Source: a virus
Virus record (IMG/VR): IMGVR_UViG_3300022751_000016
Span: 1-64,000 of that record
Length of the DNA stretch: 64,000 nt
Strand: one strand, 5' to 3'
The notes beneath the pieces are model-generated. The model was not told the DNA's origin, did no database searches, and saw only the letters and a program-made list of their open reading frames with translations. Positions 3,087-43,200 of this stretch are shown here, one piece after another (position 1 is the first letter of the stretch; each line of letters opens with the position of its first letter). Made by a program: the position numbers and the translations under genes.

Positions 3087-4324
3087 TACGTAATTCTTAT
3101 TTTTACCGTTCCGTTTGTATGGTACATTTGTCCAATTAATATCCCTCCTGTAGCAGCATCTACATCATTATTATAATTTTTACTTATAGTTGGTAAATAT
3201 TCTTTTGTTATAATAGCTTTTCCAGTAGAATCCGAAGTAATTAGAGAATTTGTTTGTTTAGGTATCGTTGTTAACCCAGTATCTAGACTTCTAAAAACAA
3301 TTCCACCTACACCATCTGCTAAGATTACATTGTTAGAGAGGGCTGTATTTAATCCTATTACTCCTCCTATCACTGTATTTCCTGAACCTGTTGTGATTCC
3401 TGTATTTAGTCTAGTATTTGGTACTATTAATGTATTATTAGAACCTGTTGTGATTCCTGTATTAAATGCACTTTGTGTTCCTAATAAAATATTGCCTGTT
3501 CCAGTGCTTAAATTACCTCCCGCTTGAAATCCTAATGCGATGTTGCTACCACCTGTTGTATTTTGCTGCATTGCCGCAAAACCTAGTGCTGTATTTCTAC
3601 TAGCTGTTGTTGAAAAATAAGATGCGCCTGTTCCAATAACTGTATTATCAGTACCTGTCGTTGAAGAAGCTAATACAGATTCTCCTACGGCTACATTATT
3701 AGAACCTGTCGTGTTTTTATTCAGTGAATTTCCTCCAAACGCTGAATTACTAGAACCTGTTGTGTTAGATGCTAAAGATTCAGAACCAAAGGCTGAATTA
3801 TAACTTCCTATTGTATTTAACTTTAATACAAATTTTCCTAATCCTGAATTACTAGTTCCTGTGGTATTTACTTCAAGGGCAGAATCTCCTATAGCAGTAT
3901 TATCTGTAATATTGTTATTTCCTTTACCTACTCTAACATCATTAATTAATTTATCAACTCCTCCTAATTCTTGTAAAGGTGTATTATCAACTATACCTGA
4001 TATACTGGAAGATACAGGTAGAAGTATCGAATTAATAATATATGGTTCTTCTTCTGTACCGACTCCTGTAACTATTACATTTTCACCCGCATTGACAATT
4101 GTCTCACTTCCATTTGGTATGGGAATCTCTGAAATTTGCTGGTCTTTAAACATTAACGCTGTAACTATGGCAGAATTTATTTCAGTTTGGGTTGCTGCTG
4201 CGGGGAGTTCTAAATAACTTATTGCGTTTGGAGTTTGGATGCAATTAGTACTAATGTAACTGCCATCGCATTCATTAGGAATCTGAGCTATACTTGTACC
4301 TTTTGTGCAATTCTTTGAATTCAT
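3086..4324 (-). CDS. Tail-fibre-like protein with YadA-type head repeats, paralogue B
   Basis: 412 residues. The N-terminal 65 residues are paralogous to the neighbouring fibre. From about residue 140 to 330 there are around twelve repeats of roughly 15 residues built on NTTGSNNVAVGESVL, matching the left-handed beta-roll repeats of YadA/trimeric autotransporter heads. This implies a trimeric, adhesin-like fibre. Its ATG overlaps the stop of the 115-residue gene by four bases. A role in surface attachment is inferred. Confidence 0.78.
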   Translation of the reverse strand: MNSKNCTKGTSIAQIPNECDGSYISTNCIQTPNAISYLELPAAATQTEINSAIVTALMFKDQQISEIPIPNGSETIVNAGENVIVTGVGTEEEPYIINSILLPVSSSISGIVDNTPLQELGGVDKLINDVRVGKGNNNITDNTAIGDSALEVNTTGTSNSGLGKFVLKLNTIGSYNSAFGSESLASNTTGSSNSAFGGNSLNKNTTGSNNVAVGESVLASSTTGTDNTVIGTGASYFSTTASRNTALGFAAMQQNTTGGSNIALGFQAGGNLSTGTGNILLGTQSAFNTGITTGSNNTLIVPNTRLNTGITTGSGNTVIGGVIGLNTALSNNVILADGVGGIVFRSLDTGLTTIPKQTNSLITSDSTGKAIITKEYLPTISKNYNNDVDAATGGILIGQMYHTNGTVKIRIT

Positions 4325-28484: not shown

Positions 28485-28537
28485 GATTACAGAAAAAGTA
28501 ATTAATTTGGTGGATTGAATTTAAAGTTGTATATTTG
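28485..28537 (+). promoter_or_regulatory. Dyad-class promoter leading into non-coding sequence
   Basis: GATTAC-N7-GTAATT (28485-28503), AA, TTTG, exactly 20 bases, TATATTTG (28530-28537). No credible gene follows for 500 bases. Confidence 0.78.
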
Positions 28538-28540
28538 CTT

Positions 28541-28740
28541 TATAATTATTGGAAGTTGCTCCCAAACAACTACTTTAGCGGATGATTATTCCGTATAGGT
28601 GCACGAATGAGAAATCAGAGTATGTTGTCTTCCTTTTACAGTAAATCGTTTTGGACGTTAGATTGGGGTTTCTGAGAACGTTATTCTCTTTGTGAAGCAT
28701 TTAGTCGTTACTTTTAAATTAACTTAAAAAATACATTATG
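28541..28740 (+). ncRNA. Putative structured non-coding RNA
   Basis: About 200 bases after a strong promoter with no real open frame. Small hairpins are visible: AGTTG/CAACT near 28552, and GAGAA/TTCTC with a five-base loop near 28676-28690. No terminator with a clear U-run is seen. It could be a regulatory RNA or a long leader. Only a 14-codon frame begins at 28738. Confidence 0.4.
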
Positions 28741-28868
28741 AGAAATGATATAATTTTTTGCTCAGATTACGATGGAATTTAGAAATATATTAAATAATTT
28801 AAGAGTTTATAACTATACTTAAAACTAATAATTATGGGAGGAGATTCCTAAAAATACCTTAAAATAAA

Positions 28869-28900
28869 TTTGCATATATCGTTTTAATACTTTATCTTTG
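28869..28900 (+). promoter_or_regulatory. Promoter of the winged-helix gene leader
   Basis: TTTG, exactly 20 bases, TATCTTTG. It drives a 140-base leader before the ATG at 29041. Confidence 0.78.
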
Positions 28901-28904
28901 CAAC

Positions 28905-29030
28905 TTAGAATTACATACAGGCGCTTATTTAGTTGTGGAAAGCTATAAAGCATTAAAATATAAAGTTACCGCTTTTAATTTATTAACCCTTCTTTCCACT
29001 TTAGAGGGTTTTTATTTTTTAGGCGGTTTT
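28905..29030 (+). promoter_or_regulatory. Attenuator-like leader
   Basis: Terminator-like hairpin AACCCT / AGGGTT (28985-29010) followed by TTTATTTTTT. Its loop contains CTTTCCAC (28992-28999), complementary to GTGGAAAG at 28935-28942. A third pair ACCGC / GCGGT spans 28968-29027. The two main pairings interlock, so they either exclude each other or form a pseudoknot, which would let the leader control read-through into the next gene. Confidence 0.5.
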
Positions 29031-29040
29031 ACTTTTTATA

Positions 29041-36286: not shown

Positions 36287-36970
36287 ATGATTAACTCACC
36301 TAAGAAAGAGAACAAGGAAAAAAGAGTATTAAAAACAGAGCCTAAACTTAAGGTAGATTTAAACGAAGAACAAAAAGAGTTTGTAAAATTATTTTATGAA
36401 TTTGATGTTTGTTTTTTACATGGAGATTTTGGTTCTGGTAAATCTTTGGCAGCAGTCCACACAGCATTGTCGGCATTCAGAAAGAAACAGTTTAATAACA
36501 TATGGATTACCAGACCTATGCTAAAAAATTCTCTAGCTGCCCTTCCTGGAACACTTGAAGAAAAAATGTCACCTTATACTTTTCCAATTACACAAAATAT
36601 GGAAGTATGTCAAGGTAAAGAAATGACAGATAAAATGTTAAAAGAAGGTATGGTTAAAATAATGCCTATTGAAGTTGCAAAAGGATGCTCTTTTATTGAC
36701 TCAGTAGTTATAATTGATGAATATGAAGATATGACTTATGCAGATTTTAGAACAATTTTAACTAGATTATCTAAGGGAAGTAAAATGATTTTCTGCGGTT
36801 CAAAAGAGCAAATTGATAAGCAGATAGGTAAAAATAGTTGTATTTATGACACTATGAGACTAGAAAACTCTGGATTAGTAGGCTATAAAACATTAACAGC
36901 AAATCACAGAAATCCTATTTTGACAAATATTATAGATTTTTTAGAAAAAGATTTGCACAACTCAAAATAA
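36287..36970 (+). CDS. PhoH-like ATPase
   Basis: 227 residues. Walker A GDFGSGKS (46-53), Walker B VVIIDEYE (140-147), and a conserved arginine motif near LTANHRNP. PhoH proteins are P-loop ATPases common in phages of aquatic bacteria; the substrate is thought to be RNA. The stop is followed immediately by the next promoter. Confidence 0.85.
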   Translation: MINSPKKENKEKRVLKTEPKLKVDLNEEQKEFVKLFYEFDVCFLHGDFGSGKSLAAVHTALSAFRKKQFNNIWITRPMLKNSLAALPGTLEEKMSPYTFPITQNMEVCQGKEMTDKMLKEGMVKIMPIEVAKGCSFIDSVVIIDEYEDMTYADFRTILTRLSKGSKMIFCGSKEQIDKQIGKNSCIYDTMRLENSGLVGYKTLTANHRNPILTNIIDFLEKDLHNSK

Positions 36971-36983
36971 ATTATTATATTTG
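36952..36983 (+). promoter_or_regulatory. Promoter of a long non-coding leader
   Basis: TTTG (inside the end of the PhoH gene), exactly 20 bases, TATATTTG. Confidence 0.78.
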
Positions 36984-36986
36984 CAT

Positions 36987-37107
36987 AAGAAAGATAGGTA
37001 AAAACACTTTTCGGCTTTTTGGTAATACGTGTGCTGTATTCTGGTAACAGGATTAAACCTTATAACAACGTGTGATGTGGATGAGTGACCACAAATCTTT
37101 CTTTTTT
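36987..37107 (+). ncRNA. Putative small RNA closed by a 9-base-pair stem
   Basis: AAGAAAGAT (36987-36995) pairs with ATCTTTCTT (37095-37103) and is followed by TTTT. It starts four bases after the promoter box and ends in a terminator-like U-run, so a discrete RNA of about 120 bases is plausible. No open frame of note. Confidence 0.55.
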
Positions 37108-37139
37108 AACTTTTTCGCGCAAAAATAACAGTCATTTGA

Positions 37140-37262
37140 ACTTAACACTAGGATAATGACAAGCGATTGGACAAAGTTAAGTGTCACGAATTGCCCTGTA
37201 ACAGCTAAATGTTGCCAGTTAGAGTAGGTCTGAGACTATTATGTGAAGCTCTAACATTTTTT
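37140..37262 (+). ncRNA. Second structured block with terminator-like hairpin
   Basis: Two stems: ACTTAAC / GTTAAGT (37140-37182) and GTTAGAG / CTCTAAC (37218-37255), the latter followed by ATTTTTTAT. Lies between the small RNA and a pseudoknot-like element; no open frame. Confidence 0.45.
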
Positions 37263-37263
37263 A

Positions 37264-37337
37264 TCGGTATCATCCCCTGTGATAGTATCTAAGGGCTAGT
37301 AGGAGTTGCATGTTAATACCGAGTGTGTAATCCTACT
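37264..37337 (+). ncRNA. Pseudoknot-like leader element
   Basis: TCGGTAT (37264-37270) pairs with ATACCGA (37316-37322), and AGTAGGA (37298-37304) pairs with TCCTACT (37331-37337). The stems interleave, as in an H-type pseudoknot. It ends 28 bases before the ATG at 37366, where it could control translation or transcription of that gene. Confidence 0.5.
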
Positions 37338-37365
37338 TATTTTTATAAAATGTAATATCAAATAG

Positions 37366-38148
37366 ATGAAAACACAAGGACAAGGTTTTAACTATAAAGT
37401 AAACGGCGAAAATAAAACTAAAGAAGAGATTGATAATATGGACTTAAGTAATATGAATTGTACAGTTGATGGTTTATCTGTTCTATATTCTTTTCCCGAC
37501 CAAAATTATATTAGGCATTTTGTAGAAATTAAGGAGAAAATAAAACTACAAGAACTAAGAGATTATTTGATAACAGATAATATTATTTGTACAGACCTGA
37601 GCACAATATATGGTATAATGTCCGCAGAAACAGAAGATGAGTTAAAAGATATTCTTAAGAAGTTACCAGAGACAAATACGCGGCTAGAAAAAGAGATAAT
37701 CAGAACAAAAACTGAAGAAATTCTAGATGAAGTTGAAAAATACCAACAAGAAGTTAACGGAGGTATTTTAAAAGGAGAAGAGTTTCCATACGATTTTACA
37801 AATTTAAACTTTAATGTAATTACAAGTAGTAATATAGAAGAAAATGAGACAATAGAATATTTCCAAGGAATAAAAGAAACAGAAGGTAAATTAGACTATT
37901 CAGAAATAAATTTCAGGTTATTAGATTTAATGGCTAAAAGATTTATGGATAACAAGGTTAAATATCCTAAAGGTAACTCTAAAAAAGTATTAGATAAAAA
38001 TGAAATTCTTTGGGCGGCATTCAGACACATTAGAAAGATGATTCAACCTATTGAAAATGACCCAGAAACTTATGAAGACCATCTTTCTGCTGTTTTAACT
38101 AACATGAGTATTATTTTAGACCAATTAGATTTGGATAAGTCAAAATAA
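37366..38148 (+). CDS. DUF5664-like nucleotide hydrolase candidate
   Basis: 260 residues. The C-terminal 90 residues run LMAKRFMDNKVKYPKGNS, FRHIRKMIQPIENDPETYED and HLSAVLTNMSIILDQL, resembling the helical DUF5664 domain (dATP/dGTP diphosphohydrolase type; KY, N, RH, E and H positions). The N-terminal 170 residues are an unrecognised charged region. A role in phage nucleotide metabolism is inferred; the match needs a profile search. Confidence 0.55.
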   Translation: MKTQGQGFNYKVNGENKTKEEIDNMDLSNMNCTVDGLSVLYSFPDQNYIRHFVEIKEKIKLQELRDYLITDNIICTDLSTIYGIMSAETEDELKDILKKLPETNTRLEKEIIRTKTEEILDEVEKYQQEVNGGILKGEEFPYDFTNLNFNVITSSNIEENETIEYFQGIKETEGKLDYSEINFRLLDLMAKRFMDNKVKYPKGNSKKVLDKNEILWAAFRHIRKMIQPIENDPETYEDHLSAVLTNMSIILDQLDLDKSK

Positions 38149-41288: not shown

Positions 41289-41447
41289 ATGTTATATGAG
41301 GCTTTATTAGAAGATGGAGATTTATTAACTTTATTTCCAGAGCTAAAAAGAAAAGACAGAGAAAATAATTGGGAGACAGATAAAAATAAATTCATTAAAC
41401 TACAAGAAGAGCAAGAAAAAGCTTTAAATATAAACGTTGAAGACTAA
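41289..41447 (+). CDS. Small acidic protein before the chaperonin gene
   Basis: 52 residues, MLYEALLEDGDLLTLFPELK..., helical. The stop overlaps the chaperonin ATG in TAATG, so the chaperonin is probably translated by coupling to it. Confidence 0.55.
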   Translation: MLYEALLEDGDLLTLFPELKRKDRENNWETDKNKFIKLQEEQEKALNINVED

Positions 41448-42940
41448 TGGGAGTTATTTTAAATAATAAGAAGATTATTGAGGGTGTTAATATTGTTGCT
41501 AACGCTGTTAAATATACTATGGGTGCAGAAGGAGGTCTTGCAATAATTGACAATATGCAACATGTTACAATAAGTAAAGATGGCGTGACGGTGTGCAAAG
41601 AAATACACTTAGAAGATGTAGTTGAAAATATGGGAGCTTCTCTTATGAAAGAGGCAGCTTTAAAAACTCTAAAAGAAGCAGGTGATGGTACTTCAACTAC
41701 TTGTGTATTGGCACAAGCCTTAATAAATAAGGGTAAGCAGCTTATTGAAAGCGGAGTTTCCCATGTTGAAATTAGAGAAGGAATTTTACAAGCTAAAAAT
41801 GATGTAATTGACCGACTAAATTCACATTCTAGGAGAACAAATAAGAAAGATGTTTATAGGGTTGCTAAAGTAGCTGCCAATGGAGACGAAGAAATTGCAA
41901 AACTTATAAAAAAAGCTTATGAATCTATCAGTTTAGACGGAATGATTGAGGTAATTAGCACAGCAAATAAGGAAACTACCTTGGAAGTTAATGAAGGTCT
42001 AAAGATAGATAAAGGTTATTTTTCAGACCACTTTATAACCGACACAGTTAAAAAAACGGCAGTACTTACAAATGTTAAAATTTTAGCTATTGATGGTAGT
42101 ATTCCAGAAGATTTTGTCAAGTTGTTAATGCCTGCAATTAAAGAATGTGAAAAAGATAATAGCAGTTTATTTATTATCTGTGATGAAATACATAATACCG
42201 CAGCAGGCTCTTTAATTAGAAATAAACTAAATAATACTCTAGCTTCATGTGTAATTAAAAATCCACTCTACGGAAAAGGAAAATTAGAATTATTACAAGA
42301 TGTAGAAGCTTATACTGGAGCTAAAATGTTAAAACTAGGAGTTAGCGAAGATTATACATTAGGGACTGCTGAAAGAATTGTTATAAATGAAAACGAGACG
42401 CTTATACAAAAAAATGAATCATCAGAATTTTTAGATGAGTATATAAAGTCTGTTAAATTACAGGAAAATAGTGAAAAAAGACTCTCTAATCTATCATCTA
42501 ATTTAGCTACACTTTTTATAGGTGGGGATAGCCCTTCAGAGATGTCTGAGAAGTATGACAGAGCAGAAGATTCAGTTTTAGCAGTTAAGTCTGCACTTAG
42601 TTCAGGAATTGTTGCAGGAGGAGGAAGTACTTTCGAATATATTTCAAAAGAGTTATCTTCAAATAATGTGGGGTACAGTATACTGTTAGACAGTATTAGA
42701 GCTCCATATAAACAAATTCTTAAAAATGCTGGAATAAAAGCTTCATTTTTTAAAACTATTCCTAAAATAAAAAAATATGGAGAAGTTTACAATGTAAAAA
42801 CTAGAAAAGTAGAAGAAATGGAATTAAATGGTATTCTTGATTCTACAAAGGTATTAAAAACAGCCTTGGAAAGTGCAGTATCAATAGCAATATTAATATT
42901 ATCTACAAAAATATCTATAACAACAGAAAAAAGCAAATGA
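41447..42940 (+). CDS. GroEL-like chaperonin
   Basis: 497 residues, about 50 fewer than bacterial GroEL. ATP-site motifs are kept: VTISKDGVTV (about 40-49) and EAGDGTSTT (77-85), and a late VAGGGS (GroEL has VAGGGV). The GGM-repeat tail is absent. It should form a ring complex that folds phage proteins, probably virion proteins. The stop overlaps the GroES-like gene by four bases. Confidence 0.88.
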   Translation: MGVILNNKKIIEGVNIVANAVKYTMGAEGGLAIIDNMQHVTISKDGVTVCKEIHLEDVVENMGASLMKEAALKTLKEAGDGTSTTCVLAQALINKGKQLIESGVSHVEIREGILQAKNDVIDRLNSHSRRTNKKDVYRVAKVAANGDEEIAKLIKKAYESISLDGMIEVISTANKETTLEVNEGLKIDKGYFSDHFITDTVKKTAVLTNVKILAIDGSIPEDFVKLLMPAIKECEKDNSSLFIICDEIHNTAAGSLIRNKLNNTLASCVIKNPLYGKGKLELLQDVEAYTGAKMLKLGVSEDYTLGTAERIVINENETLIQKNESSEFLDEYIKSVKLQENSEKRLSNLSSNLATLFIGGDSPSEMSEKYDRAEDSVLAVKSALSSGIVAGGGSTFEYISKELSSNNVGYSILLDSIRAPYKQILKNAGIKASFFKTIPKIKKYGEVYNVKTRKVEEMELNGILDSTKVLKTALESAVSIAILILSTKISITTEKSK

Positions 42941-43200
42941 AATTAGAATTTTTAGGAAATGAAATAGTGTTTGAACCTATTGAAAGCGTAAGCAGCGGCT
43001 TTGTTACAGGTGAAGAAAAGTTAAAACAAGGTAAAATACTTTACGTAGGTAAATCATCTAAATTAGGGTATAATGAGGGTGACTCAATAGTTTATGAAGA
43101 TGGACTTATGATTACAAAAAAGAATATTTTAGGGACGGATTACAGTATTATTTCGGAATTAGGTATAACTTGTAGAATTATTGAAGATGAAACAACATAA
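42937..43200 (+). CDS. GroES-like co-chaperonin
   Basis: 87 residues. The pattern VFEPIE, then a mobile-loop-like SSGFVTGEEKLKQGKILYVG, GYNEGDSIVYEDG and DYSIISE follows the cpn10 fold (GK-V-VG, GD-V, roof and DI-like end). It should cap the adjacent chaperonin. Overlaps the GroEL-like gene in ATGA. Confidence 0.8.
   Translation: MKLEFLGNEIVFEPIESVSSGFVTGEEKLKQGKILYVGKSSKLGYNEGDSIVYEDGLMITKKNILGTDYSIISELGITCRIIEDETT

Follow-up and report, generated by a model that had tools for sequence, protein, structure and literature searches.

The 64,000-nucleotide stretch of viral DNA analysed here (the window) contains a PhoH-like ATPase gene (36287..36970; PF02562, E 1.9e-37) and, downstream of it, a gene with a dATP/dGTP diphosphohydrolase N-terminal domain (37366..38148; PF18909, E 7.2e-10), whose PF18909 membership agrees with the "putative nucleotide hydrolase" of an earlier note on this DNA. 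Between these genes, and like them on the + strand, positions 36987-37343 hold three separate structured RNA modules, A, B and C, which lie 3' of a Bacteroidota-type promoter recognized by its sequence pattern (TTG-N20-TATATTTG, 36953..36983, +). The earlier note had described a promoter with no gene directly 3' of it and a series of stems at 36984-37365, and both descriptions hold in the sequence, down to the positions of the stems. Transcription is predicted to begin at about 36987-36990, probably with the first bases of P1, the closing stem of module A. The 31-bp promoter arrangement occurs at eight sites in the window (14445 and 28131 on the - strand; 28161, 28507, 36953, 38131, 43955 and 55800 on the + strand), and TATATTTG is also found 5' of the RNA in the viral contigs L004, L017 and L023. 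The site at 28507 is followed by about 500 bases with hairpins and without a plausible gene (28507-29040, longest ORF 43 aa), for which BLAST returned only weak matches, among Prevotella Lak phages and in an uncultured phage. Elsewhere in the window (41447-43200) lies a phage chaperonin: a GroEL gene (PHROG 5725, E 1e-103) and, after it, a gene for an 87-aa protein, which is GroES-like by eye and has no PHROG match.

Module A (36987..37107, +) is represented by twelve phage copies and corresponds to the 9-bp closed element of about 120 bases, ending in a U-run, that the earlier note had singled out. Its closing stem, P1, pairs AAGAAAGAT (36987-36995) with ATCTTTCTT (37095-37103), and the 3' strand runs directly into the U-tract, which extends to 37107. 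Inside P1, the helix Pa (CGGC, 37012-37015, with GCTG, 37033-37036) interleaves with P2 (ATACGT, 37025-37030, with ACGTGT, 37068-37073), and module A is therefore predicted to fold into a P1-closed pseudoknot. A third helix, P3, forms a hairpin with a GNRA loop (ATTCTG-GTAA-CAGGAT, 37038-37053). The candidate hairpin P4 (GTGG...CCAC, 37077-37092) is invariant, so that covariation speaks neither for nor against it; its loop AGTG (37084-37087) could pair with an equally invariant CACT (37005-37008). RNAalifold recovers P2 and P3 independently and chooses this CACU/AGUG pairing in place of P4.

The copies of module A, brought to twelve by pattern scans of viral contigs, comprise the window, L004, L006, L008-L012, L017, L018, L023 and the Cellulophaga phage Calle_1, which a distant BLAST search matched to window positions 37000-37103 at 83.5% identity in a region with no annotated gene. 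In their alignment, both sides change in 13 of 29 pairs, against a shuffle mean of 6.7 and with none of 500 shuffles reaching this number, and sliding one partner lowers the proportion of paired cells from 82.7% to 33-53%. Both sides change in five of the six pairs of P3 and in three of the six of P2, where 98.6% of cells are paired, whereas Pa shows a GC-to-CG flip in L023 and one-sided changes in other copies. Because P1 is misregistered in the twelve-copy alignment, it was tested separately with its register held almost constant (5' linker 4-6, 3' linker 1-2); it forms 6-12 bp in every copy, and none of 10,000 permutations among nine representatives pairs as well. P1, P3 and Pa/P2 covary across the twelve copies. 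The closing stem varies freely around an unpaired core that is almost invariant. L006, L009, L010, L012 and L018 are close relatives, which reduces the independent lineages to about seven. Each record has one clear copy, scoring 91-126 bits with the model R1 that was built from these same copies, and the last viral scan yielded no further one. A second copy at 104.5 kb of the window's own genome was dismissed as a chance match, as were the pattern hits in L015, L016, L019-L022, L024, L025, L046 and L047. Within the L006 group, module A is part of a larger element that has its own outer stem, AAGATACC/GGTATCTT (AAATACC/GGTATTT in L018); the flanks of A in this group show no significant resemblance to module B, and in L010 module A is located 3' of a ribonucleotide reductase gene. 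L004 has about 200 structured-looking, Rfam-negative bases between promoter and module A (3227-3430) that are unlike A, B and C by eye.

Module B (37131..37254, +) was found in the Tenacibaculum phage pT24 by BLAST with 37100-37365, and the same element is present in L011. The stems that the earlier note placed at 37140-37262 are there, but the region is more intricate than was claimed: two hairpins, S1 (37131-37136/37155-37160) and S3 (37163-37168/37189-37194), are joined through their loops by a kissing-loop pairing, S2 (37141-37146/37176-37181), and are followed by two more hairpins, S4 (37198-37203/37210-37215) and S5 (37219-37224/37249-37254). All five helices fit the three phages. What had been taken for a terminator-like hairpin (~37219-37254) is the closing stem S5 of this separate RNA, and in other phages a tRNA gene follows it. 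Among the three sequences, both sides change in 16 of 30 pairs in an automatic alignment (0/500 shuffles), in which pT24 is misregistered at S1; by eye, its S1 reads TAAATC/GATTTA. A whole-record search with the B model gives a single module B in the record of the window's phage, in G006 and in pT24, the sequences from which that model was built.

Module C (37264..37343, +) is an H-type pseudoknot present in four phages, in all of which it ends in a stem and a U-run. The interleaved 7-bp stems of the earlier note, S1 (TCGGTAT/ATACCGA, 37264-37270/37316-37322) and S2 (AGTAGGA/TCCTACT, 37298-37304/37331-37337), are borne out, the second being rebuilt with different letters from phage to phage: its 5' strands read AGTAGGA, AGCAGGA, AAGAGAG and AAGCTGT, each with its own matching partner. 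When S2 strands are swapped between phages, pairing is poor wherever G012 is involved (2-4 of 7) and less distinct between the window and L017. In L017, module C lies directly 3' of module A, and in L013, which is closely related to the phage of the window, it stands alone between the PhoH and hydrolase genes. A model built from the window, L017 and L013 gave a weak match in G012 (22.3 bits, E 0.03), scoring no better than a match at 108.7 kb in the genome to which the window belongs; the G012 copy was accepted because it lies directly before tRNA-Asn and because its S2 is AAGCTGT/ACAGCTT with a U-run.

The evidence from the single sequence is modest, and the comparative evidence is much stronger; the case rests on the homologues. 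Fold z-scores of the three parts are -0.78, -1.09 and -1.06. Shuffling the 382-nt stretch produces a 9-bp stem that closes 90-140 nt in 91 of 1000 cases, and a 7/7-bp pseudoknot of some kind, spanning no more than 90 nt, turns up in 53 of 500; the 91-nt pseudoknot stretch taken alone gives 2 of 3000, a flattering figure since this stretch was picked after the pseudoknot had been seen. The comparative counts, too, are made on the sequences from which the structures were drawn, which shuffles, slides and permutations offset only partly, and the scan patterns were adjusted as new copies turned up; three RNA models (R1-R3) were built. The comparison is limited to approximately seven independent lineages for A, three sequences for B and four for C. 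The earlier note had proposed covariance analysis and an Rfam search as checks: the pairings are preserved with compensatory changes among the homologues of A, B and C, and Rfam 15, at gathering and relaxed thresholds, returned nothing over the modules in the window. Its "phage ncRNA" is well supported by independent homologues and covariation. On these comparisons, A, B and C are very likely RNA genes; they are in no RNA database.

The modules are likely phage-specific within the sets searched. Plasmids gave no match. In 84,980 species genomes, a search that tests only exact keepers of one motif, with stricter filters in the larger-set search, yielded 18 pattern matches, in which inspection of the printed sequence showed the rest of module A to be absent, so that they are not host copies; a single match among 299 genomes of one family lies in the dxs coding sequence and is not module A. 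The new viral records are for the most part metagenomic; where hosts of related phages are known, they are flavobacteria.

Outside the window, tRNA genes closely enclose relatives of A and B in Calle_1, pT24 and one metagenomic phage. In Calle_1, module A lies between tRNA-Arg(TCT) (3916-3986) and a weak tRNA match (4109-4178; 23.0 bits, cut-off 29). In L011, module B is found between tRNA-Val and tRNA-Arg(TCT), and module A directly after this same tRNA-Arg. The tRNA order Gly-Met-Asp-Thr-Val-Arg around module A is common to Calle_1 and L011; the arrays therefore look homologous, and the position of A in them counts as one event, not two. Module A also follows tRNA-Met in L008 and precedes a tRNA in L006, the L023 module adjoins a tRNA gene, module B lies directly before an annotated tRNA in pT24, and module C stands just before a tRNA in two phages, including G012. 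The tRNA array of pT24 (L044) has a long spacer at 2260-2700 with T-arm-like stretches and no tRNA call, which could contain more unusual RNAs. In the 142-kb record of the window's own phage, ARAGORN detects no tRNA. The modules move independently of each other, L013 having kept only C between the same genes.

Among known systems, the stable RNAs C and D of T4 (also named species 1 and 2; 139 and 119 nt) are closest in kind to the modules. Their roles are unknown (PMC3014915, PMC9697503). They lie directly beside tRNA-Arg at the end of a phage tRNA cluster, much as module A follows tRNA-Arg(TCT) in Calle_1 and L011; a location in a phage tRNA cluster is shared by A in those two phages and by B in L011 and pT24, but not by the modules of the window's phage. 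No homology to them was detected, RNA D included: R1 gives 0 bits on the T4 rnaC/rnaD strand with filters off, and the B model R2 has no match on rnaC/rnaD. GOLLD and ROOL, RNAs of phages and prophages whose function is unknown, commonly occur close to tRNA islands and contain pseudoknots (PMC12286853). They are far larger than the modules (659 nt for the ROOL whose structure was solved, >800 nt for many GOLLD), and their Rfam models have no match in the modules. The window likewise contains no match to YrlA; in pT24, a weak one (20.2 bits, cut-off 69) overlaps both the annotated tRNA and the initial ~57 nt of the B-model match. Such Y RNA-like RNAs are tRNA-associated small RNAs, some of which occur in phages. 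The arrangement ...GGUAA...UGGUAACAG...UAAAC... in module A recalls part of the RNase P RNA specificity domain, but such an identity is not supported, with no Rfam RNase P match even at E up to 5 and the hallmark P4 sequences not seen.

The earlier note had further suggested riboswitch-like control of the hydrolase gene, and the modules could more generally be a cis-acting leader, riboswitch or attenuator, of this gene in which module C decides between terminator and read-through. The order PhoH - RNA - PF18909 gene in the window, L004, L013 and L023 favours this, and L017 can be added since the gene 3' of its RNA, although it has no Pfam match, resembles that of L023 (40% over 77 aa); the terminal stem and U-run of module C in all four phages would agree with it as well. 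For the window, L004, L017 and L023, an RNA placed 5' of a hydrolase-like gene would also fit a cis role there. However, the gene type directly downstream is not the same in all instances: A and B reside in tRNA arrays without the hydrolase gene, and for either of them this free-standing position in a tRNA slot speaks against a riboswitch, leaving the earlier suggestion unsupported for them. Module C is less clear, but control by it is disfavoured: in G012 it precedes tRNA-Asn at ~9.5 kb from that phage's hydrolase gene, L004 has the gene and no detected C, and in L017 a tRNA-like sequence separates the two. A cis-acting leader is accordingly an unlikely account.

Still less likely is that module A is a small self-cleaving ribozyme helping to cut phage tRNA-array transcripts; its compact pseudoknot, the almost invariant unpaired core within a freely varying closing stem and its placement between tRNAs suggest one, but it matches no self-cleaving ribozyme family in Rfam, bears no sign of a cleavage site and also occurs where no tRNA is near (window, L004). 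Much the same low probability attaches to the modules acting as decoys or as mimics of tRNA, by which tRNA-cleaving defences of the host would be blunted, for although tRNA-island location and phage-specific distribution would suit this, no tRNA-like fold was detected and no tRNA call falls over them in the window. It is also rather improbable, though a little less so, that A, B and C represent new RNA families with no relation to one another, drawn from a hidden, exchangeable set of small pseudoknotted RNAs kept in tRNA slots by flavobacterial phages, at least one of them catalytic or anti-defence. That chance hairpins in an AT-rich gap are involved, as unremarkable fold energies might suggest, has almost no probability left, being already refuted by covariation in the homologues of A, B and C.

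The best explanation as a whole, held with reasonable though not high confidence, is a small cassette in which tailed phages carry three interchangeable genes for structured RNAs. With very slightly less assurance, the modules may be placed among trans-acting RNAs of the tRNA-island class. As A and B sit in tRNA slots in other phages, the processing enzymes of tRNA arrays probably set them free, and they would act in trans as stable RNAs. The likeliest broad role, in translation or tRNA upkeep during infection, for instance through contact with the ribosome or with a host enzyme directed at tRNA, is a tentative suggestion, doubtful as yet; that the window's phage keeps these RNAs without an ARAGORN-detectable tRNA hints at a task other than assisting adjacent tRNAs. 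Phage RNAs beside tRNA genes, such as T4 RNA C and D, GOLLD and ROOL, are still without a known role, and to these are added three new families that come with searchable models. A and B are present in isolated phages, Calle_1 of Cellulophaga and pT24 of Tenacibaculum, in which deletion and RNA sequencing are feasible.
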